Shown in pieces: positions 2,919-20,599 of a stretch of DNA of 38,419 nt. Position numbers and translations under genes: made by a program. The notes beneath the pieces were generated by a model. That model ran no database searches, was not told the origin of the DNA, and saw only the letters and a list, made by a program, of their open reading frames with translations. The DNA lies in the NCBI RefSeq assembly GCF_902788255.1, contig NZ_CADAJR010000028.1, positions 1-38,419 on the forward strand, written 5' to 3'. The first letter of the stretch is position 1. The number at the start of each line of letters is the position of its first letter. Origin of the DNA: an uncultured Methanobrevibacter sp. Its GTDB lineage: Archaea > Methanobacteriota > Methanobacteria > Methanobacteriales > Methanobacteriaceae.

Positions 2919-2943
2919 TAAATATATAATATATGTGATGGAA

Positions 2944-3318
2944 ATGAAAAAAGATAATCTTGAAATTGATGACGAAGGCGTATGCGAAGTATTTAACTCT
3001 CATGAAGATGCAGTTGAAAGAGTAAAAGGTCGCATGCCCTCAGAAGAAGAGTATGCTGAGCTATCTGAATTCTTCAAAATATTTGGTAACCCAACAAGAT
3101 TAAAAATTATTTCCCTGCTTGCAGTAGAAGATTTATGTGTATGTGACATTTGTGAAGCTCTGGACTTGAACCAGACAACAGTCTCAAACCAACTTAGGAT
3201 ATTGCGTGCCAATAACTTGGTAAAATATCAAAAAGAAGGTAAAATGGCAAGATATTCACTTACAGACCTGCACATTGAAATGATTTACAAAGTGGGATTA
3301 GAACATATATTAGAATAA
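2944..3318 (+). CDS. ArsR/SmtB-family metal-responsive repressor, CadC-like
   Basis: A winged-helix repressor of about 124 residues expected to control the P-type ATPase 18 bp downstream. An N-terminal CEVF resembles the N-terminal Cys of CadC. The core runs from FFKIFGNPTRLKIISLL through the metal box DLCVCDICEAL (the alpha-3 CxC site), the recognition helix NQTTVSNQLRILRANNLV, and the wing GKMARYSL. The C-terminal helix carries DLHIEM and a later LEHILE, matching the alpha-5 D-x-H...H zinc site of SmtB/CzrA. Both metal sites therefore appear to be present. The ATG at 2944 has GTGAT 4 nt upstream; ATG 2938 and GTG 2935 are alternatives. Expected ligands by family are Zn(II), Cd(II) or Pb(II). 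Confidence 0.85.
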   Translation: MKKDNLEIDDEGVCEVFNSHEDAVERVKGRMPSEEEYAELSEFFKIFGNPTRLKIISLLAVEDLCVCDICEALDLNQTTVSNQLRILRANNLVKYQKEGKMARYSLTDLHIEMIYKVGLEHILE

Positions 3319-3336: not shown

Positions 3337-5937
3337 ATGGTAGAAAATAGATGTTATGATGCAGATTGTGCAGATGAAAACTGCCGCAATCCAGAACATT
3401 ACAACTACATCTGTTTTGACCCTGAATGTGAAGAAATTCACTGTACAGATTCTAATCATTATAATAAAGAGTTGTTAAGAGAATATCAAGAAAATTCAGA
3501 TTTAAGTGTATATGACCACAGAGAAGAAATAGATTATGATGAGGATGTTGACATAAGTATTTGCGGATGTCCTGATTGTGCAGATGACCATGATCACGAC
3601 CATGACCATGACCACCATCATCACCATCATGAGCATGAGGAAGAAGATTCTTGCTCTGATCCTGACTGTGGCTGTCATGACCACGACCATGAGCATGAAG
3701 ATGAGGATTCTTGTTCAGACCCTGATTGTGGTTGTCATGATGAGCATGAGCATCATCATGAGCATGACCATGAGTATGAGGATGAGGATTCTTGTTCAGA
3801 CCCTGATTGTGGTTGTCATGATGAGCATGAGCATCATCATGAGCATGACCATGAGCATGAAGATGAGGATTCTTGTTCTGATCCTGATTGTGATTGTCAT
3901 GACCATGAGCATGAGGAAAAGGATACCTGTTCAGACCCAAACTGTTCCTGCCATAACGATGATGATGTAGATATCAGCATTTGTGGTTGTCCTGACTGTG
4001 CAGATGATGACCATGACCATGAACATGGGGAAGAGGAGCTATTGGCTGAAGGAAAACCTTTGATTGCAAATAGACCTATTCAAATCATCGTTGCAAGCGG
4101 AATTTGTTTTGCAGTGGGACATATTATGGAAATGCTGTCAGTCAATCTGACTGTTGTAACATTGGTTTTCATGGTTGGTGCATTGATTGCAGGTTATGAA
4201 ATAGCAGGTCTTGCATATAAGTCATTGGTTAAAAGACACACTGTAGGTCCTGCAATGTTGATGTGTATTGCTTGTGTTGCTTCATTCATCATTGGCCATC
4301 CTGAAGAAGGTGCTGCAGTAACATTCCTTTACTACATTGCTGAGTTTTTAGAGGATTATGCTGAACATCGTGCAAAACGTTCAATCAAATCCTTGGTTGA
4401 AATCGCTCCTGAAACCGCAAGGGTTAAAGTGGGAGACTCTGAAGTGGAAAGGAAAGTCGATGACGTAAACATTGGTGAGATCGTTATTGTGAAACCTGGG
4501 GACAAGGTTCCTTTGGATGGTGCTGTTGTTTCCGGTTCATCATCAATTAACCAGGCTTCAATCACTGGTGAAAGCGTACCTGTACTTAAGGAAATCGGTG
4601 ATGAGGTATTTTCAGGAACCGTTAATGTGGATGGATACCTGGAAATTGTTGTAACCAAAAAGGCAAAAGATTCAGTCATCTCTAAAATTGTTACTTTGGT
4701 TAAAAGGTCACAACTTAACAGGTCTGAAACTGAATCCCTGGTTGAAAAAGTGGCAAAATACTATACTCCGGTAATGATGGTTGCTGCGGCATGCGTTGCA
4801 TTCATTCCCCCATTGCTATTTGGCCAGCCTTTGGTTGACTGGGTTTATAAGGCACTTTCACTTCTGGTAATCTCATGTCCTTGTGCGTTTTTAATCTCAA
4901 CACCGGTAGGTATGGTGTCTGCAATTACATCAGCTACTAAAAATGGTGTTTTGATTAAGGGAAGTACATATGTCGAGGAGATGCGTGGAGTTAAAGCGGT
5001 GATCTTTGACAAGACTGGTACATTGACTGAAGGGAAACTTGAATTGAGTGAAGTTAAAGTATTGGATGAGGGTTGTACCCAAGAGGATGTTGTAAGAATT
5101 GCGGCTTCACTGGAGCATAACTCATCTCACCCTATCGCTCAGGCTATTGTAAATTATGCAACAATGAACGATATCGAGTTTGAAGAGGTTGATGAGTTTA
5201 AAAATGTTCCAGGTAAAGGTATTGTTGCAAATATCAATGGAAATGAATATTATGCGGCAAATGAGTCTTTAATCGAAGGTTCAAACTTTGATATTTCAAG
5301 AGAAGAGATTAATAGGTATTCCAGTGAAGGCAAGACCATAGTGTTTGTGGGCGATGCATCAAAAGTGCTGGGTATAATTACCGTTTCAGATAAAATCAGG
5401 GACAATGCATTCGAAGTAATCAAAGACCTGAAAGGTCAAGGGGTACAGACTGTAATGCTTACAGGGGACAACAAGATTGCCGCTAAAAGTGTGGCCGATG
5501 AAATCGGAATCGACTATGTTTATTCCAACCTGATGCCTGAAGACAAACTGAACATTCTTGACACTATCAGAAACAAATTCGGTGATGTTGCCATGGTCGG
5601 AGACGGTATTAACGACGCACCGGCTCTTGCACGTGCAAACATTGGTATTGCAATGGGTGCTGCAGGTTCAGATGTGGCAATCGAGACAGCGGATGTTGCA
5701 TTGATGCAGGATGATATCTCAAAACTTCCATATTTATTTTCCTTATCACGCAAAACAATGGGAATCATCAAGCAGAACATTACTGTGGCAATTGCAGTTA
5801 AATTGTTATGTGTAGTGCTTGCTGTTTTAGGTATTATCACACTGATGATGTCTGTTGGATTTGGAGATTTGGGATTAACACTTCTGGTTATCTTAAACTC
5901 ATTTAGAATTGGAATGGTGAAAGATCCACTATTCTGA
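3337..5937 (+). CDS. Zn/Cd/Pb-type P1B ATPase with Cys/His/Asp-rich repeat N-terminus
   Basis: An 866-residue heavy-metal exporter. The first 240 residues are a metal-binding region instead of canonical GMxCxxC domains: a Cys-rich start (Cys 6, 11, 16, 27, 31, 36), then CGCPDCADD motifs at about 70-84 and 210-224 that flank five CSDPxCxCH units (from about residues 104, 124, 151, 178 and 196) separated by His/Asp/Glu runs. The ATPase core follows: TGES, the transmembrane CPC (514-516), phosphorylation site DKTGT (Asp 558), SSHP, and GDGINDAPAL. The C-terminal helices carry a Lys (KLLCVVL) and an Asp (DLGLTLLVILNSFR), as in ZntA/CadA, which points to Zn, Cd or Pb rather than Cu. GGTGAT precedes the ATG. 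It forms an operon with the repressor upstream. Confidence 0.93.
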   Translation: MVENRCYDADCADENCRNPEHYNYICFDPECEEIHCTDSNHYNKELLREYQENSDLSVYDHREEIDYDEDVDISICGCPDCADDHDHDHDHDHHHHHHEHEEEDSCSDPDCGCHDHDHEHEDEDSCSDPDCGCHDEHEHHHEHDHEYEDEDSCSDPDCGCHDEHEHHHEHDHEHEDEDSCSDPDCDCHDHEHEEKDTCSDPNCSCHNDDDVDISICGCPDCADDDHDHEHGEEELLAEGKPLIANRPIQIIVASGICFAVGHIMEMLSVNLTVVTLVFMVGALIAGYEIAGLAYKSLVKRHTVGPAMLMCIACVASFIIGHPEEGAAVTFLYYIAEFLEDYAEHRAKRSIKSLVEIAPETARVKVGDSEVERKVDDVNIGEIVIVKPGDKVPLDGAVVSGSSSINQASITGESVPVLKEIGDEVFSGTVNVDGYLEIVVTKKAKDSVISKIVTLVKRSQLNRSETESLVEKVAKYYTPVMMVAAACVAFIPPLLFGQPLVDWVYKALSLLVISCPCAFLISTPVGMVSAITSATKNGVLIKGSTYVEEMRGVKAVIFDKTGTLTEGKLELSEVKVLDEGCTQEDVVRIAASLEHNSSHPIAQAIVNYATMNDIEFEEVDEFKNVPGKGIVANINGNEYYAANESLIEGSNFDISREEINRYSSEGKTIVFVGDASKVLGIITVSDKIRDNAFEVIKDLKGQGVQTVMLTGDNKIAAKSVADEIGIDYVYSNLMPEDKLNILDTIRNKFGDVAMVGDGINDAPALARANIGIAMGAAGSDVAIETADVALMQDDISKLPYLFSLSRKTMGIIKQNITVAIAVKLLCVVLAVLGIITLMMSVGFGDLGLTLLVILNSFRIGMVKDPLF
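3703..3864 (+). repeat. Tandem 81-bp in-frame repeat in the P-type ATPase gene
   Basis: Bases 3703-3783 and 3784-3864 are nearly identical 81-bp units, each encoding 27 residues that include a CSDPDCGCH motif plus a His/Glu/Asp spacer. Only a few bases differ near the end of each unit (TAT versus CAT, GAG versus GAA). Shorter diverged copies flank them at about 3646, 3865 and 3919. The number of units is likely to vary by slippage or recombination without breaking the frame. Confidence 0.9.
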
Positions 5938-6210: not shown

Positions 6211-6432
6211 ATGGTATACAAAAAAATCATGGACTGCGCGATTGAACATAAACACGCTTTAATATTTGCGGGAGGTATTGCAACCGCAATTATCGGTAAA
6301 AAAGTATTAGAATCACAAACTTTCAAAGAAACCACTACAAAAGCTATGGCTAATGTAATGTCAGCTAAACAGGATGCTGAGAAAGCTGTTGAAGAAATGA
6401 AAAAGGATGCAGAAGAAATTAATAAAGAATAA
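6211..6432 (+). CDS. DUF6110-like small protein, copy 1
   Basis: A 73-residue protein with one short hydrophobic segment (about residues 16-29, ALIFAGGIATAIIG) between a positively charged start and the motif KKVLESQTFKETTTKAMANVM, then a highly charged amphipathic helix rich in Lys and Glu. This layout matches DUF6110 as I remember it, a family of unknown function seen near metal P-type ATPases. AAGGAGG at 6197-6203 gives a strong start. It is the first of three tandem paralogues spaced 15 and 11 bp apart, all on the same strand as the ATPase about 270 bp upstream. A role as an accessory to metal transport is inference. Confidence 0.7.
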   Translation: MVYKKIMDCAIEHKHALIFAGGIATAIIGKKVLESQTFKETTTKAMANVMSAKQDAEKAVEEMKKDAEEINKE

Positions 6433-6447
6433 ACCGGGGGAATAGTT

Positions 6448-6678
6448 ATGGTATGGAAAAAAGCATTGACTTTAGCAGTAGGGCACAAAGCAGCATTAAT
6501 CTTTGCTGGAGGAGTTGCAACTGCAGTAGTCGGTAAAAAAGTGTTGGAATCAGACATTGTAAAAGAAACCGCAACAAAAGCTATGGCTGAAGTAATGTCC
6601 ATGAAAAACGATGCTGAAAAAATGATGGATGATATGAAAGCCGATGCTCAGGAAATTGTTGTTGAATCTAAAGAATAG
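6448..6678 (+). CDS. DUF6110-like small protein, copy 2
   Basis: A 76-residue paralogue of its neighbours. It shares HKAALIFAGGVATAVVGKKVLES and the following TKAMAEVMS-x-K-x-DAEK region, then an acidic helix with Met-rich spacing (EKMMDDMKADAQEIV). GGGGGAAT lies just upstream of the ATG. One membrane-inserting or peripheral hydrophobic segment is predicted by eye at about residues 15-29. Its position in the middle of a three-gene run suggests a hetero-oligomer or dosage amplification, but no function is known. Confidence 0.7.
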   Translation: MVWKKALTLAVGHKAALIFAGGVATAVVGKKVLESDIVKETATKAMAEVMSMKNDAEKMMDDMKADAQEIVVESKE

Positions 6679-6689
6679 CTGGTGATTGG

Positions 6690-6956
6690 ATGCTACGTGA
6701 AGACATTTTACCATTTGCAAAAGAACATAAACATGCTTTACTATTCGCTGGAGGAGTTGCAACAGCACTCATTGGTATGAAAATCTTAAAATCACAGACA
6801 ACCAAAGATTTGGCAACCAAAGGAATGGCTAGTGTAATATCTGCCAAAAAAGATGCAGAAGAAACCTTCCAGGATATGAAGGAAACTGCTGAAGACATAG
6901 TCTATGATGCCAGTGAACAAAATCAGCAGGAAATCTACGTTGAGAAAAAAGAATAG
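6690..6956 (+). CDS. DUF6110-like small protein, copy 3
   Basis: An 88-residue paralogue with the same core (HKHALLFAGGVATALIG, then MKILKSQTTKDLATKGMAS) and a longer acidic, Gln-rich C-terminus (ASEQNQQEIYVEKKE) than the other two copies. GGTGATT at 6680-6686 precedes the ATG by 3 nt. It ends the small operon; 127 AT-rich bases follow before the MATE gene. Divergence among the three copies is substantial, so the duplication is not recent. Confidence 0.7.
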   Translation: MLREDILPFAKEHKHALLFAGGVATALIGMKILKSQTTKDLATKGMASVISAKKDAEETFQDMKETAEDIVYDASEQNQQEIYVEKKE

Positions 6957-8664: not shown

Positions 8665-10269
8665 ATGGATAAAAAATATATTATTGGAGCAATTGTAGCT
8701 GTTATTGCAGTAGTTGCCGTAGCTGCTTTTGCTTTAGGTGGGGGCAGTACTGAACATGCTGCTAATGAATTAGTTACATGTGTGGCTGCTCATGGAGAGG
8801 AACCTGAATTCGGTTTTGACCCAATGCATGGTTGGGGATACCATGATTCAGGAACAGAACCTCTCATTCAAAGTACAATTCTTAAAAGAGACAAAGACAA
8901 TAATTTCGTAAATGACCTAGCAACAGACTATGACATTTCCAGTGACTTTAAAACATACACCGTAACTATCCGTGACGATGTAAATTTCACTGACGGTAAT
9001 AAATTAACCGCAAAAGATGTTGCATTCTCTTATAATAAAGCTAAAGAGTTAGGTGAAGGTGCAGACTTAAGCTCTATGAATGAAGCTAAAGCTGATGGAA
9101 ACAAAGTTGTATTCACACTCAATAAATCAGATTCAACATTCATCAACAAATTGACTGATGTAGGAATTGTTCCTGAAGCAGGTTACAATGAAGATTCATA
9201 TGGTCAAAACCCAATAGGATCAGGACCTTATAAATTGGCTCAATGGGATAAAGGACAACAGTTCATCCTCGAGAAAAACCCTGACTACTATGGAAAAGAA
9301 CCATACTTCGATAAAATCACCAATCTCTTCCTTGACTCCGATGCGGCATTTGCAGCAGTTAAAAACGGAGATGTGGACATTGCTGAAGTGCCAGTAGCAT
9401 ACGCTAACGAAACCGTAAAAGGATATCATATGGAATACTTCGATTCTATTGATGTACGTGGTATTTCTCTGCCAACTCAAATGGACGAAGGTAAATTAAG
9501 TGAAGATAATGTAACCATTGGTAACAATGTAACTGGTGACCCTGCTATTAGGGAAGCATTAAACATTGGTATTGACAGAGAAGCATTATTAGAAGGTGCA
9601 TTAAACGGTTTCGGTGATGTTAACTATAATGGTGTAGCGGATCAATTAGCATGGTCATTTAATTCCACATTTAAAGACGGTCAAGTTGACCAAGCAAAAC
9701 AAGTTCTAGAACAAGCAGGTTGGAAAGATACTGACAACGATGGAATTGTAGAAAAAGATGGTCAAAAAGCATCATTCTCAGTTTACTATAATTCTCAAGC
9801 ATCCGAAAGACAGGCAATTGCTGTAGCTGTTGCAGAACAAGCTAAACAAATAGGTATTGAAATTGAACCTGTTGGCGGAAGCTGGGATGACATTGACCCT
9901 AACAGATACAGCCAAGGTGTTGTATGGGGATTCGGTTCAGCTGACCCAATGGAAATCCAACATCAATATGATTCCAGAGTAGCAGCCGTAGGTTACGACA
10001 ACCCTGAAGCACTCAACGATACTGCAGTTGATTCATTGATTGATTCAGCAATGGCTCAAGAAACTAACTCTTCATATGCTACATGGTCTCAAGCAGCTCA
10101 ACAAGCTAATTCCAACTACCCATTCCTTTGGGTTGGAACTATGGATTACACTTACTTTGTAAGTGATGACTTAGACATTTCCAACAGTACACACCTGATA
10201 TATCCTCACGGTGGAGATATCTGGGGTAATATCTACGATTGGAAACGTGTTAATGAAACCGAAGCTTAA
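8665..10269 (+). CDS. ABC importer substrate-binding protein, NikA/CntA/OppA type (copy 1)
   Basis: A 534-residue family-5 extracellular binding protein. After MDKK there is one hydrophobic helix (about residues 5-25) with no lipobox cysteine, so it is anchored by an uncleaved helix. Then come HGEEPEFGFDPMHGWGYH, LATDYDIS, VTIRDDVNFTDGNKLTAKDV, GSGPYKLAQWDKGQQ and DPAIREALNIGIDREALLEG, all standard for this fold. The GFDP...GWG start is characteristic of the nickel/peptide subgroup, which includes proteins binding nickel complexes. It heads a five-gene operon A-B-C-D-E. A second copy with the same architecture lies at 17939. Specificity for nickel or a nickel chelate is inferred from family and context. 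Confidence 0.88.
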   Translation: MDKKYIIGAIVAVIAVVAVAAFALGGGSTEHAANELVTCVAAHGEEPEFGFDPMHGWGYHDSGTEPLIQSTILKRDKDNNFVNDLATDYDISSDFKTYTVTIRDDVNFTDGNKLTAKDVAFSYNKAKELGEGADLSSMNEAKADGNKVVFTLNKSDSTFINKLTDVGIVPEAGYNEDSYGQNPIGSGPYKLAQWDKGQQFILEKNPDYYGKEPYFDKITNLFLDSDAAFAAVKNGDVDIAEVPVAYANETVKGYHMEYFDSIDVRGISLPTQMDEGKLSEDNVTIGNNVTGDPAIREALNIGIDREALLEGALNGFGDVNYNGVADQLAWSFNSTFKDGQVDQAKQVLEQAGWKDTDNDGIVEKDGQKASFSVYYNSQASERQAIAVAVAEQAKQIGIEIEPVGGSWDDIDPNRYSQGVVWGFGSADPMEIQHQYDSRVAAVGYDNPEALNDTAVDSLIDSAMAQETNSSYATWSQAAQQANSNYPFLWVGTMDYTYFVSDDLDISNSTHLIYPHGGDIWGNIYDWKRVNETEA

Positions 10270-10324
10270 ATGATTTATTTCATATAAATCATTTTCTTTT
10301 CTTTTTTTAAATTAATTATATGAG

Positions 10325-11320
10325 TTGATTAAAATTAACAATAAAAAATTAGCTAAATTTTTAGGTTTTAAAGCCATTAGATTACTAATTTTATTAATTG
10401 TTATTGCAGCAATCAGTTTTATAATGATCCAATTATCTCCAATTGATCCGGTTAAAGCGTATCTTGGTCAAAGAATCGTTAGCCAGGAACAATTGGCAAT
10501 TGTTGGAGAATATTGGGGAACAAATCTGTCTTTAGGCGAAAGAGTTATGGGTTGGCTTACAACATTGGCATCTGGAAGCATGGGTTTCTCATTGATTTTC
10601 AGAGTTCCTGTTACTGAAGTAATCGTACAGAAATTCACAGCGTCATTGACTCTTATGGTCGTCTCTTGGGTAATATCTGCAATCGTAGGATTTGGGTTAG
10701 GAGTTATTGCAGGTGCAAAAGAGGGAACTTGGATAGATAAAGTAATTAAAACTTATTGTTACATTTTACAATCCACACCGACCTTTTGGATAGGATTAGT
10801 ACTTTTAATGGTTTTTTCAGTATATTTAGGATGGTTCCCAATCGGTCTTTCAGTGCCTATTGGCCAGTTATCCGACACGGTCACTTTCTGGCAGTGGTTG
10901 TATAGATTGATACTTCCAGCTGTTACTTTAAGTATTGTTGGAATAGCGTCCCTTACAATGTTTACAAGGGATAAGCTTATCAATGTTAAAAAAAGCGATT
11001 ATTTCTTGTTTGCACAGGCTAGAGGTGAAAGCTTTTGGGGGATAATAAAAAACCATGGGATAAGAAATATTCTGCTTCCTGCAATAACAATTCAATTCAT
11101 GTCATTCAATGAGTTATTTGGTGGAACAATTCTTGTTGAACAGGTATTTGCCTATCCGGGTATCGGTCAGGCAACAGTTGCGGCAGGATTAAGGTCAGAC
11201 GTTCCCTTATTGTTAGGCATTGTTATTGTCAGTACAATTTTTGTATTTGTCGGAAACCTGATTGCAGACATGATTTATAAATATGTTGATCCTAGATTGA
11301 GGGGTGAGGATGATGAGTGA
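10325..11320 (+). CDS. ABC importer permease, NikB/DppB type (copy 1)
   Basis: A 331-residue inner permease subunit with about six membrane helices. It has the family N-terminal part (RLLILLIVIAAISFIMIQLSP-I-DP) and the cytoplasmic coupling loop around FAQARGESFWGIIKNHGIRN (about 225-248). The start is TTG; an upstream in-register ATG at 10320 leads straight to a stop. The same TTG usage in the paralogue at 19610 supports it. The 3' end overlaps the next gene, so translation is coupled. Confidence 0.9.
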   Translation: MIKINNKKLAKFLGFKAIRLLILLIVIAAISFIMIQLSPIDPVKAYLGQRIVSQEQLAIVGEYWGTNLSLGERVMGWLTTLASGSMGFSLIFRVPVTEVIVQKFTASLTLMVVSWVISAIVGFGLGVIAGAKEGTWIDKVIKTYCYILQSTPTFWIGLVLLMVFSVYLGWFPIGLSVPIGQLSDTVTFWQWLYRLILPAVTLSIVGIASLTMFTRDKLINVKKSDYFLFAQARGESFWGIIKNHGIRNILLPAITIQFMSFNELFGGTILVEQVFAYPGIGQATVAAGLRSDVPLLLGIVIVSTIFVFVGNLIADMIYKYVDPRLRGEDDE

Positions 11321-12164
11321 AACTCCATGGTACAATAAAGGTTTATTCAGTTCTTTAAACTTAAGGCAAAAAACCTTATTGACAATTGCACTCACAGGAT
11401 TGCTGTTATTGGTTATTTTTCTTTGTGGAATGTTTATTGATGCAAATTTGCCTACCGATTTCACCACAAGAATGAAACCGCCGTCCTTTGAACATCTTTT
11501 CGGTACTGATTGGATGGGAAGGGACATGTTTTTAAGAACAGTTAAGGGTTTAAGCTTAAGTATTGTAATTGGTATAGGAGCATCAGTGATATCCAGTATC
11601 ATCGCCACTATTCTAGCATTTGTCGCAAGTTTTAACAGGTATAGTGACACATTCGTGTCCTGGCTTATTGACTTATTTGCGTCAATACCTCATATCCTAC
11701 TGATTATGATGATATCCATTGCGTTGGGTAAAGGTGCATTTGGTGTAATAATGGCTGTGGCATTTTCACATTGGGTGAATTTAACCAGAGTATTGAGGGC
11801 GGAGGTCTTGCAGATTAATACCTCAGAATATGTTGCATTGTCCCAGAAATTTGGAAGAAGCAAATTATGGATTGCAAAAGAGCATATCCTACCATTGGTA
11901 TTGTCCCAGATATTTGTTGGAACATTACTGGTATTCCCTCATGCGATTATGCACGAATCAAGCGTAACATTTTTAGGATTCGGTTTATCTCCACACGAAC
12001 CTGCAATTGGTATAATCCTATCCGAATCAATGTCCTATCTTGCAATGGGGGCATGGTGGTTGGCATTCTTCCCAGGTTTGGCATTGCTGATTGTAGTATT
12101 GCTGTTTGATATTATTGGGGATAATCTAAAACGTTTGTTTGATCCTTCAGAGGCTAATAATTAG
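11313..12164 (+). CDS. ABC importer permease, NikC/DppC type (copy 1)
   Basis: A 283-residue second permease subunit. It shows the family N-terminal helix with the loop FEHLFGTDWMGRDMFLRTVKG, six hydrophobic segments, and the coupling loop region SQKFGRSKLWIAKEHILPLV. The C-terminal part has HEPAIGIILSES, common in Opp/Dpp/Nik permeases. GGGGTGA at 11301-11307 supports ATG 11313; ATG 11310 or GTG 11304 are alternatives. It overlaps the end of the B gene by 8 nt and is followed by the ATPase gene after 11 bp. Confidence 0.9.
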   Translation: MSETPWYNKGLFSSLNLRQKTLLTIALTGLLLLVIFLCGMFIDANLPTDFTTRMKPPSFEHLFGTDWMGRDMFLRTVKGLSLSIVIGIGASVISSIIATILAFVASFNRYSDTFVSWLIDLFASIPHILLIMMISIALGKGAFGVIMAVAFSHWVNLTRVLRAEVLQINTSEYVALSQKFGRSKLWIAKEHILPLVLSQIFVGTLLVFPHAIMHESSVTFLGFGLSPHEPAIGIILSESMSYLAMGAWWLAFFPGLALLIVVLLFDIIGDNLKRLFDPSEANN

Positions 12165-12175
12165 GTGGTGATTTA

Positions 12176-13123
12176 ATGTCAAAGCTATTGGAAGTAAATA
12201 ATTTATCAATATCATTCACACAATATGTTCAGGGATTGAATAGGCATGACTCAAAGGTTATCACCGACTTAACAATTGATGTCGATGAAAATGAAATTGT
12301 TGCGATATTGGGTTCTAGCGGCTCAGGTAAAAGTCTTTTGGCACATTCAATTTTAGGAATTTTGCCGTATAACTCTCATGTAACCGGTGAAATTAAATAT
12401 GAGGGGCAAGTTTTAGACCAGGAATTAAAAGAAAAGTTAAGAGGTGATGAAATATGTCTGATACCTCAATCCGTTAATTTCCTGGATCCTCTTATGAAGG
12501 TGTCTGAACAGGCAATTGGTGAATGCAAGGATGAAAATGAACATAAGGAAAAGAAATTGAGACAAAGGGAAATATTTGACAAATACGGATTAGATGAAAG
12601 TGTGGATGATTTATATCCTTTTGAGTTATCCGGAGGAATGGCAAGGAAGGTGTTATTGTCAACTGCGCTGGTGGGCAATCCTAAATTGTTGATTGCCGAT
12701 GAACCAACTCCTGGTCTTGATTCAAAAAGTGTTAAGGAAACAATTGAAGATATTCGTAATTTAAAGGAAAACGGTAAAGGGGTACTGTTAATCACTCACG
12801 AAATAGATGTTGCTCTTAAAACTGCAGACAGGATTGCAATATTTTATTCAGGTTATGTTATCGAAATAAACACTGTTGAAAACTTCAAAAATGCGGAAAA
12901 TGTATTGCATCCATATTCAAAAGCGTTGATTAATTCTCTGCCGAGAAACGGTTTCAATTTAACTGAGGGTGTTCAGCCCTTAGATGAGGTTCCAGGTTGT
13001 CCTTACTATGAAAATTGCCCGATACGATTGGATAAATGTGAAAAAAACAAACCTGAATTGATTGACCATGATGGAATTATGATTAGATGTTTCAATTTTG
13101 AGGAGGTTAACGATGGAACTTAA
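12176..13123 (+). CDS. ABC importer ATPase, NikD/DppD type (copy 1)
   Basis: A 315-residue nucleotide-binding subunit. Walker A is GSSGSGKS, the signature is LSGGMARK and Walker B is LLIADEPTPGLD, with a switch His in LLITHE. The C-terminal extension (about 255-310) contains four cysteines in CPYYENCPIRLDKC and a later RCFNFE, the conserved oligopeptide/dipeptide-type tail that in related proteins binds an iron-sulfur cluster. GGTGGTGATTTA precedes the ATG. The 3' end overlaps the E gene by 11 nt. It is nearly collinear with the copy at 15266-16213. Confidence 0.92.
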   Translation: MSKLLEVNNLSISFTQYVQGLNRHDSKVITDLTIDVDENEIVAILGSSGSGKSLLAHSILGILPYNSHVTGEIKYEGQVLDQELKEKLRGDEICLIPQSVNFLDPLMKVSEQAIGECKDENEHKEKKLRQREIFDKYGLDESVDDLYPFELSGGMARKVLLSTALVGNPKLLIADEPTPGLDSKSVKETIEDIRNLKENGKGVLLITHEIDVALKTADRIAIFYSGYVIEINTVENFKNAENVLHPYSKALINSLPRNGFNLTEGVQPLDEVPGCPYYENCPIRLDKCEKNKPELIDHDGIMIRCFNFEEVNDGT

Positions 13124-13724
13124 AGCAAGTAACATTTCTTTTTCATATAATAAAAATCGAAAGATTTTACAGGATTTTTCCATATCTGTCAATAGTAATC
13201 AGATAATTGGTTTGATGGGAGACAGTGGAAGCGGTAAATCCACCTTATGCAAGATTATGGCAGGCTATATTTCACATTATTCTGGTGAAGTTACATTGGA
13301 TGGCAAAACAATTCCTAATAAGGATTTCTATCCAGTTCAATTAATTTTCCAACACCCTGAAAAGACCATGAATCCTAAATGGAAAATGGAAAAGGTTTTA
13401 AATGAATCCTGGACTCCTCCTCAAGATTTAAAAGATACTTTTGGCCTTAAAGAGCACTGGTTGACACGTTGGCCTAATGAACTTTCAGGAGGGGAACTGC
13501 AGCGCTTCAGCATATTGAGGGCTCTTAATCCAAAAACTAGATTCATCATTGCAGATGAGATAAGTACTATGTTGGATGCCGTAACACAAGTGCAGATATG
13601 GGAAGCGCTTATCAATCATTGCAAAGCGAATAATATTGGCATATTGGCTGTAAGTCACGATAAAGAGTTGCTTGAAGTGTTTTGTGATGATATTTTATAT
13701 TTTGATGAAGTTAATAATCTTTAA
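13113..13724 (+). CDS. ABC importer ATPase, NikE/DppF type, short form (copy 1)
   Basis: A 203-residue second ATPase with Walker A GDSGSGKST, signature LSGGELQRFSI, Walker B FIIADEISTMLDA and the switch VSHDKE. Usual NikE/DppF subunits are about 260-330 residues; this one ends soon after the switch region and lacks the C-terminal Cys tail, as does its paralogue at 14650. AGGAGGT at 13101-13107 fixes the ATG at 13113; an earlier TTG at 13098 is less likely. It is the last gene of the operon and converges on the nicotianamine synthase gene. Confidence 0.9.
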   Translation: MELKASNISFSYNKNRKILQDFSISVNSNQIIGLMGDSGSGKSTLCKIMAGYISHYSGEVTLDGKTIPNKDFYPVQLIFQHPEKTMNPKWKMEKVLNESWTPPQDLKDTFGLKEHWLTRWPNELSGGELQRFSILRALNPKTRFIIADEISTMLDAVTQVQIWEALINHCKANNIGILAVSHDKELLEVFCDDILYFDEVNNL

Positions 13725-13790
13725 CTCATCAATATATAACTTTTTTTTAACCATATTAAATTTTAATTTGGCGATGGTTTATTTTGGTAC

Positions 13791-14612
13791 TTACTCAATT
13801 TTCCTAATTAAAACTGAAGTGTTGTTTGTTTTTCCTGAAGGTAGCATCATAACTTCCTTATGGAAACCTCTTGTATCCTTATCAAGCACTGGAGAATATA
13901 GTATTGCTCTCATTCCGGTATATGTTCTGTAGATTACTGGTGTTTTTTCATCTACATATTCCCAGATGTTTGCAAAGACCCTGTCCTTCGGCTCAGCCAG
14001 TGCTGCAACCATCAAAATGTCATAATCCAGATCTTTGATTGCGGTTTCATCTCCCACAACAATTTCAATGTCCTTGTCGAGGCCCAATCTTTTAAGAACT
14101 TTTACGGATAGCTCTGCAACATTTTCCTGCTGTTCGATTCCAATGCATTTGCATCCGAATACCTTGTTAAACATTATCAATGTCAATGGAAGAGGGCCTG
14201 ATCCTAAAAATAAAAAAGTTTTTTCTTCATTGAATTTTGCAAGTTGGCTTTCATTTTCAATAAGTCCAATGTATCTATCATAAAAATGGAATGAATCTAG
14301 TGTTTTGCTTGGATTGTCTGATTCCAATATTTTTAGGGCATTTTCGGTTTCTAGTCTAGCACCAATGTAAACATAAAATTTTCTAATCAGTTTCAATGCC
14401 TTGTTCATCTTTTCATCATCTAGGATGTGTTTTGCGGAATCGAAATCGATTGTCTTGTCATGAGCTATTATTTCCACATCGTCTAAAATTTCTATGATTT
14501 CATCAATGTTGATGTCATCTAGTTCCGAACTTCCGTATTTGTTCAAATCACCATAGGATGATAGTTTTTCTGCAATTTCCGCTAGTTTTCCCCAGTATTT
14601 ATAACAACTCAT
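13791..14612 (-). CDS. Nicotianamine synthase family protein (metal-chelator synthesis)
   Basis: A 273-residue protein recognised as a nicotianamine synthase homologue, a family that joins aminocarboxypropyl groups from S-adenosylmethionine into metal chelators: nicotianamine in plants, thermonicotianamine in Methanothermobacter, and the staphylopine precursor in CntL. The helical N-terminal domain (about 1-110) contains FYDRYIGLIENE (109-120). The Rossmann domain starts with FLFLGSGPLPLT, equivalent to the plant FVGSGPLPLT, and continues with CIGIEQQ and DILMVAALAEPKDRVF. Near the end is YRTYTGMRAILYSPV, matching the family HGxRAFLYP. GGTGA sits 5 nt before ATG 14612. It lies 37 bp after the E2 ATPase gene and is very likely in the D2-E2 operon, tying chelator synthesis to uptake. 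Confidence 0.88.
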   Translation of the reverse strand: MSCYKYWGKLAEIAEKLSSYGDLNKYGSSELDDINIDEIIEILDDVEIIAHDKTIDFDSAKHILDDEKMNKALKLIRKFYVYIGARLETENALKILESDNPSKTLDSFHFYDRYIGLIENESQLAKFNEEKTFLFLGSGPLPLTLIMFNKVFGCKCIGIEQQENVAELSVKVLKRLGLDKDIEIVVGDETAIKDLDYDILMVAALAEPKDRVFANIWEYVDEKTPVIYRTYTGMRAILYSPVLDKDTRGFHKEVMMLPSGKTNNTSVLIRKIE

Positions 14613-14649
14613 TTTTTTCACCGAATAATTTGTTTTTCAATGATTATAA

Positions 14650-15264
14650 TTAAATATGGTTAATATCTTTTAAATAAATCTTATCGTCACAAATAGTTTC
14701 CACTAAATCCATGTCATGACTAACAAGTAAAAAACCCATTTTTCTTTGTTTCACGATTTTTAAAACAGAATCTAGTATTTGTACTTGTGTGATTGCATCA
14801 AGCATTGTTGTCATTTCATCTGCAATTAAAAACTTGGTGTTTGGATTCAGTGATCTTAAAACTGAAAATCTTTGAAGTTCTCCTCCAGATAATTCCTGAG
14901 GAAAACGGGTTAACCAACTCTTTTGAATACCGAATTCCTCAAAGAATTCATCAGGCACATTCCATGATTCTTTTAACACCATTTCCATTTTCCATTTTGG
15001 ATTCATTACTTTTTCAGGGTGTTGGTATATTAACTGCACTGGTTTGAATCCTTTTTTAGGTAATGGATTTCCATCAAAAGTCACGCTACCTTCATATTTT
15101 GTGACATATCCTGATAATATTTTGCATAATGTTGATTTTCCACTTCCGCTGTCTCCAATCAAGCCGATGATTTTATTATTGTTCAATTCAAGATTAACAT
15201 CTTTTAATAAATAATTTTTAGCGGAAGGATACTTAAAGGATATATTTGTTGCTTTAAGTTCCAT
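14650..15264 (-). CDS. ABC importer ATPase, NikE/DppF type, short form (copy 2)
   Basis: A 204-residue ATPase closely similar to the copy at 13113 (for example ATNISFKYP, GLIGDSGSGKST, QLIYQHPEKVMNPKWKME, LSGGELQRFSV, FLIADEMTTMLDA). AGGTAGGTG supports the ATG at 15264, one base after the stop of the D2 gene; a GTG at 15273 is less likely. It is transcribed away from its presumed partners A2-B2-C2, which lie 2.7 kb off on the other strand. The operon continues into the nicotianamine synthase gene. Confidence 0.9.
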   Translation of the reverse strand: MELKATNISFKYPSAKNYLLKDVNLELNNNKIIGLIGDSGSGKSTLCKILSGYVTKYEGSVTFDGNPLPKKGFKPVQLIYQHPEKVMNPKWKMEMVLKESWNVPDEFFEEFGIQKSWLTRFPQELSGGELQRFSVLRSLNPNTKFLIADEMTTMLDAITQVQILDSVLKIVKQRKMGFLLVSHDMDLVETICDDKIYLKDINHI

Positions 15265-15265
15265 T

Positions 15266-16213
15266 TTATGCACCTACCTCATATTTGAAGCATCTTACTT
15301 TTTTATTTCCCAAGTTTAATAGTTCTGGCCTTTCATCTCTGCATCTATCAAATCTCATTTCGCATCGGTCATAATATGGGCATCCGTTTTGGATTTCTCC
15401 GTGTAATGGTTGATGGCCTTTAATCAATTCAAATCCGTTTGCAGGCAATGCCTTGTATAATGCTTTGGTGTATGGGTGCAATAGGTTTTCACCATCACCT
15501 GAGAAATCCTTGTTTTCAGCAATTTCAATAACATATCCTGAATAGAATATACCAATTCTGTCTGCCACTTCTAGTGCTGCATGTATGTCGTGTGTGATAA
15601 GAAGCACTCCGATTCCATCTTCTTTCATGTGTTTAAAGTGATTTAATGTTTCTTTTACAGTTTTTTCGTCAAGTCCCGGTGTAGGTTCGTCTGCTACAAC
15701 GAGTTTTGGGTCGGATAATAATGCAGTGGATACGAGTACTCTTCTTGCCATTCCTCCAGATAATTGGAATGGGTACATATCGTCCACTTCGGGTCCTAAG
15801 TTGTAGTGTTTGAATATTTCTCTTTGTTTAAGTTTTTTCTCTTTTCTTTTATTTTCATCTTTAACATTTCCGATGGCTTGATCGGAAATTTTCATCAATG
15901 GATCGAGGAAGTTGACTGATTGAGGTACCAATACAATTTCTTCGCCTCTTAGTTCCTCTTTATCCTGTTGGCTTAATTCTTTTCCTTTGTATTTAATTTT
16001 TCCGTTTAAGTTAGCATTTTCAGGAAGTATTCCAAATATTGCATGTGCTAACAGGCTTTTTCCAGAACCACTTGAACCTAAAACCGCCAATATTTCTCCT
16101 TCAGATATATCTAAGGTTAAATCCGTTATTACCTTTAAATCTCTTTGAGTTAATCCTTTTGTATATTGGATAAATGAGATTGAAACATTTTCTACATCTA
16201 GTAATTTTTCCAT
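15266..16213 (-). CDS. ABC importer ATPase, NikD/DppD type (copy 2)
   Basis: A 315-residue ATPase, the same length as copy 1. Walker A is GSSGSGKS, the signature LSGGMARRV and Walker B LVVADEPTPGLD. The Cys tail is GCPYYDRCEMRFDRC plus RCFKYE, expected to hold an iron-sulfur cluster. GGTGAATTA precedes the ATG. A TATA-like TATATAAAA on this strand (about 16243-16252) gives a promoter that shares a 145-bp divergent region with the GNAT gene and its operator pair. Confidence 0.92.
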   Translation of the reverse strand: MEKLLDVENVSISFIQYTKGLTQRDLKVITDLTLDISEGEILAVLGSSGSGKSLLAHAIFGILPENANLNGKIKYKGKELSQQDKEELRGEEIVLVPQSVNFLDPLMKISDQAIGNVKDENKRKEKKLKQREIFKHYNLGPEVDDMYPFQLSGGMARRVLVSTALLSDPKLVVADEPTPGLDEKTVKETLNHFKHMKEDGIGVLLITHDIHAALEVADRIGIFYSGYVIEIAENKDFSGDGENLLHPYTKALYKALPANGFELIKGHQPLHGEIQNGCPYYDRCEMRFDRCRDERPELLNLGNKKVRCFKYEVGA

Positions 16214-16300
16214 TAATTCACCTTCATAATTTCCAAATGGTAAGTTTTATATACTAATTTGTACTTTATCAATATTAAAGTTATTCAAAATTTACTAAAA

Positions 16301-16341
16301 AGTATTACTAATTGCATAAAATTTGTAGAATTAATAATACT
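16301..16341. promoter_or_regulatory. Paired operator in the divergent D2 / GNAT-1 promoter region
   Basis: AGTATTACT (centre 16305) and ATAATACTT (centre 16337) are again exactly 32 bp apart, with CATAAAAT (about 16315-16322) between them as a TATA-like element for the rightward GNAT gene. The leftward TATA is about 50 bp away, so the pair may mainly control the GNAT promoter, or both. Confidence 0.55.
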
Positions 16342-16358
16342 TTTACATTGGTGTTAAT

Positions 16359-16919
16359 ATGAATGTTACAATTAAGGCTTTAGGCAATAATCCAAAGGAA
16401 ATTAAGCAAGTTCAAGACTTTTTATTTAAAATGATAAAAGAAGAATTTGGATATGGATATGTTGCCAAATGGCATCAGGATATTGTTAAAATAGATGAAT
16501 ATTATATTAATCCTGAACGAAACAATTTCTTTGTTGCTTACTATGAAACTGGCGAGATTATTGCAACCATTGGAATGAGAGCATATGATAAGGATTTTCC
16601 TCAATTTAGACATTTATACTCTAATGATATTACTTCAAGCATTTGGAGGCTGTTTGTAGATAGGAGATGTAGGCGTTGCGGATTGGCTTCAAAAATGGTT
16701 AGTGTTGCTGAAAATTTTGCAAATCAGAAAAACTATGAGAATATCTACCTTCATACTCATAAAACATTAGATGGTGCTTTGGAATTTTGGAAAAAAATGG
16801 GTTTTATAGTAAGTTTGGATGCAAATGATGAACTTGAAACGGTTCATATGGATAAAAAAATTCAAGGATTGAAAATAGATTCTCTTGCAAATGACTTTAG
16901 ATATGCTGTAAAATTATGA
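16359..16919 (+). CDS. GNAT-family N-acetyltransferase (copy 1)
   Basis: A 186-residue GNAT-fold enzyme expected to transfer an acyl group from acyl-CoA to an amine. The order is WHQDIVKIDEYYINPERNNFFVAY, then the beta-4 strand and acetyl-CoA loop SSIWRLFVDRRCRRCGLASKMV (a Q/RxxGxA-like motif), then NIYLHTHKTLDGALEFWKKMGF. It is clearly a paralogue of the GNAT at 21486 (YYINP, ATIGxRxYDKDF, SIWRL, YLHTH), with a C-terminal extension of about 15 residues. GGTGTTAAT precedes the ATG. Its placement under the island operator suggests a substrate linked to metal uptake, possibly the chelator. The substrate is unknown. Confidence 0.85.
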   Translation: MNVTIKALGNNPKEIKQVQDFLFKMIKEEFGYGYVAKWHQDIVKIDEYYINPERNNFFVAYYETGEIIATIGMRAYDKDFPQFRHLYSNDITSSIWRLFVDRRCRRCGLASKMVSVAENFANQKNYENIYLHTHKTLDGALEFWKKMGFIVSLDANDELETVHMDKKIQGLKIDSLANDFRYAVKL

Positions 16920-17606
16920 TTTTTTAATATATCTTTGTGTGTGGGGACATGCATAGATGCATTTTCCACATACGGTATCGGGCTTTCCCAAGTTTTCTTT
17001 TGAAATTTTCAATGCATATTTTTCACATTTTTTATCGTCATAAAAATCGTTTCTCTTAAGTGTGTAATTCCATTCCTTGCCGCTTATTGCTCCTCCGGGA
17101 CAGGCGTCCATACATTCTGTGCACTTTCCACATCTTGACTTGAGCACGGGTTTTCCGATATTCAGAGGGGCATCGGTTAGAACGGATGATAGTCTAAGTG
17201 CTGATCCATATTCTTTTGTTGTAAACAGTGCAGATTTTCCAATCCACCCAAGCCCTGCCTTTGTGGCAATGGTCTTGTGGGGTAATTCAAATGAATTGAA
17301 CTTTCCAAAATCAGTTCCTAATCTCTTTTTTGTTTGAGCATATGCATGGTATCCTTTATCAATTAAGAACTCTTCGCAAATCATGCCTAATGTGTCTAAC
17401 CGTGTATTCAAGCTTACTAACTCATCAACATATTCTCTTGTTGGTGCGTTTTTCATATTCCTTATTATGTCTTTAGGATATGTGATGTAGAATACCACTC
17501 CTATGTTCAAGCCATCTTTTGGGGTAAAGTTTGTGATGTCGGCATATCCCAATTCTGTTGCACCGTTTTTTAACAGATGGTCTTTAAGTTCGGTGGATAA
17601 ATTCAT
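16914..17606 (-). CDS. QueG-like two-[4Fe-4S] reductase of unknown substrate
   Basis: A 230-residue iron-sulfur protein related to epoxyqueuosine reductase. It has the family core HKTIATKAGLGWIGKSAL and LRLSSVLTDAPL, then two ferredoxin-like motifs: CGKCTECMDACPGGAI (about 161-176) and a later Cys in KKCEK followed by VCGKCIYACPHT. QueG proteins are usually 310 or more residues with a longer N-terminal cobalamin region, so this is a short form. Archaea use archaeosine rather than queuosine, so tRNA epoxyqueuosine is an unlikely substrate. The gene overlaps the GNAT end by 6 bp tail to tail, and an island-type palindrome lies 45 bp upstream of its start, which suggests co-regulation with the importers. 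Confidence 0.75.
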   Translation of the reverse strand: MNLSTELKDHLLKNGATELGYADITNFTPKDGLNIGVVFYITYPKDIIRNMKNAPTREYVDELVSLNTRLDTLGMICEEFLIDKGYHAYAQTKKRLGTDFGKFNSFELPHKTIATKAGLGWIGKSALFTTKEYGSALRLSSVLTDAPLNIGKPVLKSRCGKCTECMDACPGGAISGKEWNYTLKRNDFYDDKKCEKYALKISKENLGKPDTVCGKCIYACPHTQRYIKKS

Positions 17607-17646
17607 GAATGGTATATTTGCTTTGGGAATATTTAAATTTAAGTTT

Positions 17647-17655
17647 TGTATTACT
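17647..17655 (-). promoter_or_regulatory. Single operator palindrome upstream of the QueG-like gene
   Basis: TGTATTACT (centre 17651) matches the island palindrome and lies just upstream of an AT-rich TATA-like TTTAAATA on the minus strand (about 17628-17636), which would give a leaderless mRNA starting near 17606. No partner 32 bp away is visible, so its assignment is weaker than that of the pairs. Confidence 0.4.
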
Positions 17656-17864
17656 TTTAAAAATTTGATATTTAATTTTTATTCAATTTTATGAACCTTT
17701 TTTTTGAATTTTTGATTTATTTGTTATTTTATTGTAATAATTGCATTCAATTTCATGATTGTTTGTTTGAATTATTTATATTTTTAAAGGAAATTTTAAA
17801 AGTAATAAATATATTTTTATATTGTCTGATATAAAATAGACATGTTATTAAAATAAATTTGAAT

Positions 17865-17917
17865 AGTATTACTTATTAGGTACTTTTATGCCAAAAAGTA
17901 TTACTTTATTTTAATAC
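17865..17917 (+). promoter_or_regulatory. Promoter and paired operator of the second ABC importer operon
   Basis: AGTATTACTT (centre 17869) and AAGTATTACTT (centre 17901) are 32 bp apart, with a third TTAATACTT (centre 17914) 13 bp further on. A TATA-like TTTTATG (17884-17890) lies between the first two. The arrangement is almost superimposable on the promoter at 8583-8637, including the third site at 12-13 bp, although the flanking sequence differs. Confidence 0.6.
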
Positions 17918-17938
17918 TTATCTTTTATGGTGAAAATT

Positions 17939-19555
17939 ATGGATAAAAAATATATTATAGGAGGGATTATAGCTGTAGTGGTAATTGTAGTTGCGGCTTT
18001 TGCGCTCATGGGAGGATCTACAGATTCCGACCCGACACATTTGACTGTAGCTGCACACAGCAACATCAAAGAACCGGAATCAGGATTCAATCCGTTGACC
18101 GGTTGGGGATGCGGACACCAAAACTATAATCCATTAGTACAAAGCTGTTTATTCAAAACAGATAAGAAGGGAGAAATAGTTCCAGACCTTGCTAAAGACT
18201 ACTCAATCAGTAGTGATGGTAAAACATGGACAGTACATGTAAGAGATGATGTGAAATTCTCAGACAATTCAACATTCGATGCAGAGGATGTGGCATTTAC
18301 ATTCAACACTGCAAGAGCAACTGAATCAGACTTGGATTTAACCAACATTAAGGATGTTAAAGCAACTGATAATAAAACTGTTGAATTCACATTAGAAGAG
18401 CCAAGATCAACATTCATTTATGACTTAAGATATGTGGGTATCGTTCCTTCCGATTCATACAACAACGAAACCTATGGTGAACAGCCAATAGGTACTGGAC
18501 CATATGTATTGGACCACTGGGACAAAGGCCAACAAGCTATATTCAAAATCAATGACAATTATTATGGTGACAAACCATACTTCACACAAATTACCTTATT
18601 ATTCCCTGAAGAATCAACATGGTTGGAATTAGCAAAATCTGGTCAAGTTGATGTGGTTCCTGTAGCAACATCTGCATTAAACCAAACTGTTGACGGATAC
18701 CAATTCGTTGAAAAATCCGCTGGAAGAGCACAAGGAGTATCATTCCCTTACCTTGAAGACACTGGAAACGTAAGTGAAGGTGGCGCTAAAATAGGTAACA
18801 ACGTAACAGCTGACAAGGCTATAAGACAAGCATTGAATGTTGGTGTAGACCGTCAAAAAATGTGTGATGAAATATTCGCAGGTCACGCAACTCCTGAATA
18901 CACAAGTGTAGATACAAGGGATTATGCAAACGATAATGCAAAAGTTCAAGACGGCGATGTGGCTAAAGCAAAAGAAATCTTGAAAGAGGGTGGATGGACT
19001 GACACTGATGGTGATGGAATCGTGGATAAAGATGGTGTAAAAGCATCATTTGACTTATACTATCCTCCTGATTATCTTGACAGGCAATCTTTATCAACCG
19101 TATTTGCTGAACAAGCAAAAGAAATTGGTATTGAAGTTAACCTCAAAGGTGCTGACTGGGATACAATTTATCAAAACATGTACTCATCAGCAGCATTGAT
19201 GCAACAAACTTCTCCGGACCCATACAAATCAATTTACCAACAATACCACAGTAAAGAAGCAGATGACTTCTATATGAACCCTGGTTTATATAATAACACT
19301 GAATCTGATGCATTGATGGAACAAGCAATGCACGCTAATGATTTCAGCCAAGCTGATTCATTATGGGCACAATCTGCATCCGTTAACGGTGGAGGTTGGG
19401 GTCCTGCTGGTGATGCTCCATTTGCATGGTTAGTCAACTATGACTACAACTATTTCATTAAAGATGGTATTGATATTGGTGAACAACCTGACGGTTTAGG
19501 AAACGATATTTTAATTAATGTTGGAGATTGGACTAGGAACAATGCTACAGCATAA
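17939..19555 (+). CDS. ABC importer substrate-binding protein, NikA/CntA/OppA type (copy 2)
   Basis: A 538-residue paralogue of the protein at 8665. It has the same anchor (MDKKYIIGG and a hydrophobic helix to about residue 24, no lipobox), then AAHSNIKEPESGFNPLTGWG, LAKDYSISSDGKTWTVHVRD, GTGPYVLDHWDKGQQ and ADKAIRQALNVGVDRQKMC. Ligand-site surroundings differ from copy 1 (for example GWGCGHQNYNPL versus GWGYHDSGTEPL), so the two may bind different complexes. ATG 17939 is chosen because GGTGA lies 5 nt upstream; an ATG at 17927 overlaps that site. It heads A2-B2-C2-GNAT. Confidence 0.88.
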   Translation: MDKKYIIGGIIAVVVIVVAAFALMGGSTDSDPTHLTVAAHSNIKEPESGFNPLTGWGCGHQNYNPLVQSCLFKTDKKGEIVPDLAKDYSISSDGKTWTVHVRDDVKFSDNSTFDAEDVAFTFNTARATESDLDLTNIKDVKATDNKTVEFTLEEPRSTFIYDLRYVGIVPSDSYNNETYGEQPIGTGPYVLDHWDKGQQAIFKINDNYYGDKPYFTQITLLFPEESTWLELAKSGQVDVVPVATSALNQTVDGYQFVEKSAGRAQGVSFPYLEDTGNVSEGGAKIGNNVTADKAIRQALNVGVDRQKMCDEIFAGHATPEYTSVDTRDYANDNAKVQDGDVAKAKEILKEGGWTDTDGDGIVDKDGVKASFDLYYPPDYLDRQSLSTVFAEQAKEIGIEVNLKGADWDTIYQNMYSSAALMQQTSPDPYKSIYQQYHSKEADDFYMNPGLYNNTESDALMEQAMHANDFSQADSLWAQSASVNGGGWGPAGDAPFAWLVNYDYNYFIKDGIDIGEQPDGLGNDILINVGDWTRNNATA

Positions 19556-19609
19556 TTAAATATTTTTTTCCTTTTTTTTATTTTTTAAAATTTTTAAGGG
19601 GGTTTATTT

Positions 19610-20599
19610 TTGAATAAAAATCAATTAATAAAATTTTTTGGTTTTAAATTAGTTCGTTTTATCATATTGATGATTGCAGTTGCAATTTTTAGTTTCATAC
19701 TATTAGATTTATCCCCTATCAATCCGGTTACTGCTTATTTGAAAGGTGCTGCAGTATCTGAATCTCAACGTGCAATACTTGAAAGCTATTTTGGCGTTAA
19801 TGTCCCATTGCCTACCAAAATATATCATTGGCTCCTTGATTTAGTTCAAGGGAATCTTGGAACCTCTTTAATCTATCGTGCACCAGTTATGGATGTCATC
19901 ATGGATAAGTTTTCAGCATCAATTGTGTTGATGGCAATATCATGGTTGCTTAGTGGTGTGTTAGGTTTTATTTTTGGTGTTGTCGCTGGAAAAAACAAGG
20001 GATCCTGGATTGACAAGGCTGTTAAAGTATATTGTTATGCAATTCAATCTGCACCTTCATTTTGGGTTGGAATGCTTATTTTAATGGTTTTTGCAGTGTA
20101 TCTTGGTTGGTTCCCTATTGGTTTTGGTGTTCCGATTGGTGTTAAAAGTACCGATGCTACTTTTATGGAATGGGCATCAAGGCTTGTACTGCCCACTTTA
20201 ACTTTAAGTCTCGTGGGTCTTGCTCCAATTGCAATGTACACACGTAATGAATTGGTTCAGGTATTGTCTTCAGACTATGTATTGTTTGCAAAATCAAGAG
20301 GTGAACAAGGTTGGGATTTAGTTAAAAACCATGGAATCAGAAATATTCTGCTTCCAGCAATAACTCTGCAATTCTTATCATTCAGTGAACTTTTTGGTGG
20401 TGCTGTTCTTGTAGAACAAGTATTTTCCTATCCTGGAATAGGGCAAACTGCTGTAGCGGCAGGTCTTCAAAATGATGTTCCATTGTTTTTAGGAATTGTG
20501 GTGTTTAGTGCAGTGTTCGTATTTGTTGGAAACTTGCTTGCTGATATCTCATATTACTTAATCGACCCAAGAATTAAGGAGAGTGAATTCAGTGATTAA
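19610..20599 (+). CDS. ABC importer permease, NikB/DppB type (copy 2)
   Basis: A 329-residue permease with six membrane helices and the coupling loop FAKSRGEQGWDLVKNHGIRN, closely matching copy 1 at 10325. The TTG start at 19610 is preceded by AAGGGGG. Its end overlaps the C2 gene. The cognate ATPases D2 and E2 are not downstream but on the opposite strand at 14650-16213. Confidence 0.9.
   Translation: MNKNQLIKFFGFKLVRFIILMIAVAIFSFILLDLSPINPVTAYLKGAAVSESQRAILESYFGVNVPLPTKIYHWLLDLVQGNLGTSLIYRAPVMDVIMDKFSASIVLMAISWLLSGVLGFIFGVVAGKNKGSWIDKAVKVYCYAIQSAPSFWVGMLILMVFAVYLGWFPIGFGVPIGVKSTDATFMEWASRLVLPTLTLSLVGLAPIAMYTRNELVQVLSSDYVLFAKSRGEQGWDLVKNHGIRNILLPAITLQFLSFSELFGGAVLVEQVFSYPGIGQTAVAAGLQNDVPLFLGIVVFSAVFVFVGNLLADISYYLIDPRIKESEFSD

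Follow-up and report, generated by a model that had tools for sequence, protein, structure and literature searches.

Zinc and cadmium pumps of the ZntA/CadA kind typically carry N-terminal HMA (GMxCxxC) domains. Arabidopsis HMA4 has a Cys/His-rich tail that binds about 11 Zn with a KD < 10 nM, largely via di-Cys motifs; these motifs are required for full function in vivo, whereas the His stretch is not (PMC6255694). The yeast Cd pump Pca1p uses its Cys-rich N-terminus as a Cd sensor, and the domains of ATP7B relieve autoinhibition (PMC10654040). Synechocystis ZiaA exports Zn and has a metal-binding region at its N-terminus (PMC3763678, PMC8880997), and a swap of this region altered the in vivo specificity of CoaT, which is a precedent for a role in specificity (PMC8880997). 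Oscillatoria brevis Bxa1 is described in a secondary account as a His-rich CPx-ATPase with an ArsR-family repressor (Tong 2002, cited in PMC11591864). In sCoaT, a pump of the related subclass P1B-4, removal of the metal-ligand-rich tail changed little in vitro, which counts against a strong role of the tail (PMC8880997). Whether the terminal metal-binding tails of metal pumps buffer metal, sense it or filter for specificity is still under discussion (PMC10654040, PMC8880997).

The window, by which we mean the whole stretch of 38,419 nucleotides that was analysed from an uncultured Methanobrevibacter sp., encodes a pump that shares with ZntA/CadA (4umv) the core, the CPC motif and the membrane Lys and Asp, and like CadA it adjoins a CadC-type sensor. 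Unlike ZntA/CadA, it has no HMA domain and carries a double CCCH head, CxCxxC boxes and an array of units. HMA4 is likewise a P1B-2 ATPase with a long Cys/His-rich tail, but this tail is C-terminal and has CC pairs, and HMA4 keeps its own N-terminal metal-binding region and has no CCCH head. ZiaA differs in having one N-terminal metal-binding domain, and the accounts of it cited above describe no unit array. Bxa1 and Pca1p are likened to this pump by description, and Pca1p differs in that it acts via ubiquitin-dependent degradation (PMC10654040). Cys/His-rich tails were thus already known from HMA4, Bxa1 and Pca1p, whereas the head and tether found here are new in detail. The features of the locus are the following.

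2866 to 2887, no strand assigned: predicted repressor operator, the imperfect palindrome CATGTCATAATATCATGATATG, adjoining the TATA-like TTTTAAATA (2893-2901)
2941 to 3318, plus strand: ArsR/SmtB-family metalloregulator, CadC/SmtB-like, with an LCVCD motif (profile and PDB matches)
3337 to 5937, plus strand: open reading frame of the pump, ATG start, 866 amino acids
3337 to 3459, plus strand: N-terminal head with two C-x4-C-x4-C-x4-H motifs (residues 6-21 and 26-41)
3460 to 3561, plus strand: partly conserved linker, residues 42-75, with a predicted helix at residues 44-53 (structure model)
3562 to 3579, plus strand: first CGCPDC (CxCxxC) box, starting at residue 76
3586 to 3981, plus strand: variable array of five C-x4-C-x-C-H units (at residues 106, 126, 153, 180 and 198) with His/Asp/Glu-rich linkers
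3675 to 3755 and 3756 to 3836, plus strand: two 81-bp direct repeats carrying units 2 and 3
3982 to 3999, plus strand: second CGCPDC (CxCxxC) box, starting at residue 216
4045 to 5937, plus strand: P1B-2 ATPase core with TGES, SCPC, DKTGT, HP, GDGINDAP, Lys822 and Asp844 (family models, 4umv alignment)

The pump is a P1B-2 (Zn/Cd-type) ATPase with its heavy-metal core from about residue 240 onward. It scored 511.6 bits with the Cd family model TIGR01512 (cut-off 313.5) and 605.8 with TIGR01525 (cut-off 346.25), and the closest solved structure to the core was the ZntA zinc pump 4umv (E 3.8e-112). The P-type motifs TGE, DKTGT and GDGxNDxP are present, as are the P1B hallmarks SCPC (residues 513-516) and HP (598-599), both of which were invariant when 39 orthologues were aligned. 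The same was true of other key core residues and of K822 and D844, which align with the transport residues K693 and D714 of 4umv. On the core tree, the nearest pump core was 93% identical, and in the core scan Methanobrevibacter MAGs were the closest named loci. Judged by its sequence, the pump is a predicted Zn/Cd exporter, with predicted transport of Zn, Cd and Pb.

The product of the upstream gene matched HTH_5 (E 8.6e-17) and NF033788 (86.5 bits, cut-off 55), and in the PDB it matched SmtB (1.7e-19) and CadC (3.7e-17). It has the ArsR/SmtB fold and the metal-site Cys pair LCVCD, which places it with CadC/SmtB. Of 87 loci, 81 have a CadC/SmtB-like gene immediately 5' of the pump; for the remaining 6, the upstream stretch in view is short or occupied by a longer N-terminus. 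Inverted repeats lie before the repressor gene at 2861-2900 and 2875-2917, and the predicted operator palindrome, to which the regulator may bind in a metal-released manner, is retained at the same place in most of the Methanobrevibacter-like relatives compared. The Methanosphaera-like relatives have a different palindrome there, CATATGAA(C/T)AAA(C/T)ATTCATATG, which reads CATATGAACAAATATTCATATG or similar and presumably resembles the SmtB/CzrA operators. Repressor and pump look like one two-gene, metal-induced export operon.

Core and regulator also bear on the question of which metal the tail may serve. It could be meant for another metal or for a partner, for example by buffering Ni or Cu or by docking a chaperone. 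Methanogens handle large amounts of Ni, a metal that is bound by His runs. The His-rich Bxa1 reportedly confers resistance to mono- and divalent cations, according to the secondary account (cited in PMC11591864). However, the core is of the P1B-2 class with the ZntA-type Lys and Asp, the regulator is CadC/SmtB-like, and the window genome has a separate large open reading frame in which a P-type ATPase domain is combined with two HMA domains, as in Cu pumps. We regard a tail for another metal or partner as very unlikely.

The original prediction described a P-type ATPase with an N-terminal region of about 235 residues with six early cysteines, two boxes, five units and a His/Asp-rich array, and no GMxCxxC domain. 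This description was borne out, and in residues 1-236 a search for the HMA domain (PF00403) gave no match, nor did any further family in Pfam or NCBIfam. The window genome has three HMA domains, all outside the window pump. Two tandem C-x4-C-x4-C-x4-H motifs, which had been overlooked as such, account for the six early cysteines (positions 6, 11, 16, 26, 31 and 36); they are followed by a CGCPDC box, the five C-x4-C-x-C-H units and the second CGCPDC box. When 52 species were aligned, ten columns were invariant, namely the six Cys and two His of the head, Pro19 and Leu47. Two CCCH motifs were found in 68 of the 71 copies with a complete N-terminus and three or four motifs in the other 3. In a related, Methanosphaera-like genus, the head is wholly or partly duplicated in five copies (L127, L137, L143, L169 and L170). 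The linker has near-invariant columns at L46, L47, Q51, D55 and H61. The cysteines C76, C78 and C81 of the first box were nearly invariant in the alignment of 52 species and C216, C218 and C221 of the second box in the 39 full-length proteins, and exactly two CxCxxC boxes are present in 63 of the 71 complete copies.

The head was compared with known domains. A PDB search gave no relative (best E 0.65), and a Pfam search gave no significant score. In 1 of 12 members, AZUL was matched with an E of 0.39. The AZUL pattern is likewise C-x4-C-x4-C; this E value is at chance level, and the resemblance was kept as a lead only. That the head is a domain known elsewhere was also rejected, since Pfam, PDB, plasmid and viral collections held no significant match. 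In the full-length structure model, residues 1-50 were the best-modelled part of the N-terminus, with a pLDDT of about 61-74. When the head was modelled alone, the pLDDT was 53.5, and tetrahedral sites or a metal-site geometry therefore receive no support from the model. In methanogens of rumen and gut, the head is a new candidate for a zinc domain.

Of 139 Methanobacteriaceae genomes searched with a profile of the head, 88 have the module; they represent 5 of 17 genera. The 13 other genomes of the phylum gave no match. In the window genome, the module occurs once. No relatives of the module were found in the plasmid and viral collections searched, and the bacterial matches of the core scan, the search that reached other phyla, had N-termini of other types. 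A chance pattern or a misread frame is excluded by residue shuffles and by the relatives in the 88 genomes. The N-terminal module is a real and well conserved part of a known pump type. Among 18 module-negative genomes that were checked, 3 carry the same pump on contigs that start inside the array (L175-L177), 1 has a degenerate-looking copy with stops (G062), 11 have a different pump, 44-49% identical, with a short CC/His N-terminus, and 3 have only more distant pumps. The different pump (L178-L188), a distinct P1B-2-like protein of other Methanobacteriaceae, shows N-terminal Cys/His clusters, CCGHDH among them, together with a box resembling GCACE. These short Cys/His-cluster pumps indicate that Cys/His-rich N-termini are more widespread among these archaea, with the double CCCH head as the mark of a single branch.

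Between the boxes, the five units of the window pump also read C.D..C.CH. When the array residues were shuffled 20,000 times, C-x4-C-x-C-H was found 0.05 times on average and at most twice. The two 81-bp repeats are 95% identical to each other, and a comparison of units 2 and 3 with their linkers gave the same 95% over 81 nt, so the near-identical direct repeats that had been noted are present. In the full-length model, residues 54-233 have a pLDDT < 50 and are predicted to be disordered, which weakly suggests that the small head is borne on a tether that is long and flexible.

Across the copies, the stretch between the boxes ranges from 38 to 207 residues. In the 71 complete N-termini, we counted no unit in 27 copies, one in 21, two in 10, three in 6, and four, five and six in 2 copies each; a cysteine-cluster copy, L150, was counted as 7 units, where the looser pattern matches CC runs. 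The original prediction had singled out the array as the distinguishing feature, but many orthologues have only 0-1 units, whereas both the double CCCH head and the pair of CxCxxC boxes hardly vary, and the array is excluded as the defining feature. It had also been asked whether the array is a common and constant feature already described in the family. The N-terminus is indeed common in the family; the array is not constant, and neither it nor the module as a whole was found described in the searchable libraries and open literature. It had been suggested that the unit number may vary among strains. Our comparison is at the species level only, and here the variation is large and arises by tandem duplication.

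Close relatives differ in unit number. The window pump, with 5 units, is nearest to L107, which has 3; L136 and L146, with cores about 2% apart, have 2 and 3. On the pump-core tree (67 tips), a minimum of 30 changes in unit number was required, compared with 35.7 (range 29-40) when the labels were shuffled. The unit number changes almost as freely as shuffled labels and has little phylogenetic signal. Counts from short reads are approximate, since 9 of 88 gene copies run off a contig end within the array (L104, L119, L163-L167, L169 and L170), and L113, L126 and L116 have frameshifts or a junction, located inside the array or behind it. Single-contig genomes confirm the range, with 6 units in G039 (L135), 1 in G043 (L110) and 0 in G019 (L105, which has 92 His). 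In L116, an unrelated coding sequence follows the array, probably by misassembly. The family offers a natural graded series in which closely related pumps combine one invariant head with 0 to 6 units, which makes the effect of unit number on metal capacity, affinity or resistance directly testable.

Since the unit number has so little phylogenetic signal, the array could be a tolerated, low-complexity product of slippage that has no function of its own, with the head and boxes alone functional. Its CAY/GAY repeats look slippage-prone, and several copies have frameshifts or contig ends inside the array. The units themselves speak against this. Their DNA identity is on average 0.81 within one array versus 0.66 between species, and for 35 of 68 units the closest relative lies in the same array, indicating tandem duplication. 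Between unit pairs of the same array, pS was 0.475 and pN 0.059 (0.740 and 0.068 for the pairs of the window array), giving a pN/pS of about 0.12, a ratio that is biased somewhat downwards because the units were selected by their Cys/His/Asp pattern. With pN well below pS, the C3H pattern is retained by purifying selection while silent sites drift. The His/Asp/Glu richness of the array (median 71%) is also maintained across species. We therefore consider an array without function unlikely.

With moderate confidence, we favour a metal-regulated Zn/Cd exporter with a head predicted to bind metal and a flexible, extensible buffering tether. Buffering or sensing of metal, as put forward in the original prediction, is plausible. 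The two-gene operon, the CadC/SmtB-like repressor followed by the P1B-2 ATPase, would be induced by metal. The HMA domain would be replaced by three layers, the C3H head (6-41), the C3 boxes (76-81 and 216-221) and the disordered tether bearing the units. We infer that tether and units take up cytosolic Zn2+ or Cd2+ and keep it close to the membrane entry site, and metal held in this way may lead to a greater capture under overload. The invariant head may sense metal occupancy or pass metal to the CPC/Lys/Asp site, and when loaded it would probably relieve autoinhibition. Unit number would result from slippage or unequal crossing-over among 60-81-bp repeats and would tune the capacity. By analogy with HMA4, the Cys units and the head may weigh more than the His runs of the window pump, which may do little, as the His stretch of HMA4 is dispensable. 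Since many orthologues have no unit at all, the array is dispensable for the pump, which counts against a strong role.

Invariance is limited to the head, while the presumed buffering part ranges from none to six units. This would fit an N-terminus that is mainly a sensor, where the head blocks the ATPase until metal binds and the array sets the threshold and delivers no metal. The Cys-rich N-terminus of Pca1p and the domains of ATP7B are precedents (PMC10654040). However, a purely sensory role does not readily account for purifying selection acting on each C3H unit along a long array, and we find a mainly sensory N-terminus doubtful. A bolder and less probable reading takes the array as a capacity dial that can evolve, driven by slippage and under selection, combined with a double-CCCH zinc-sensing head that would be both undescribed and confined to Methanobacteriaceae. 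If so, gut methanogens would lengthen or shorten a repeat and thereby set the metal held per pump and the response.

Upstream of the operon, 1930-2343 encodes a putative redox protein of the C_GCAxxG_C_C family. The pump is followed at 6212-6956 by three tandem small paralogues with a common EHKHA-like start, the third of which matches DUF6110. From reading the sequence, 8665-21446 holds parts of peptide/nickel-type ABC transporters (binding protein, permeases and ATPases) in two similar sets.
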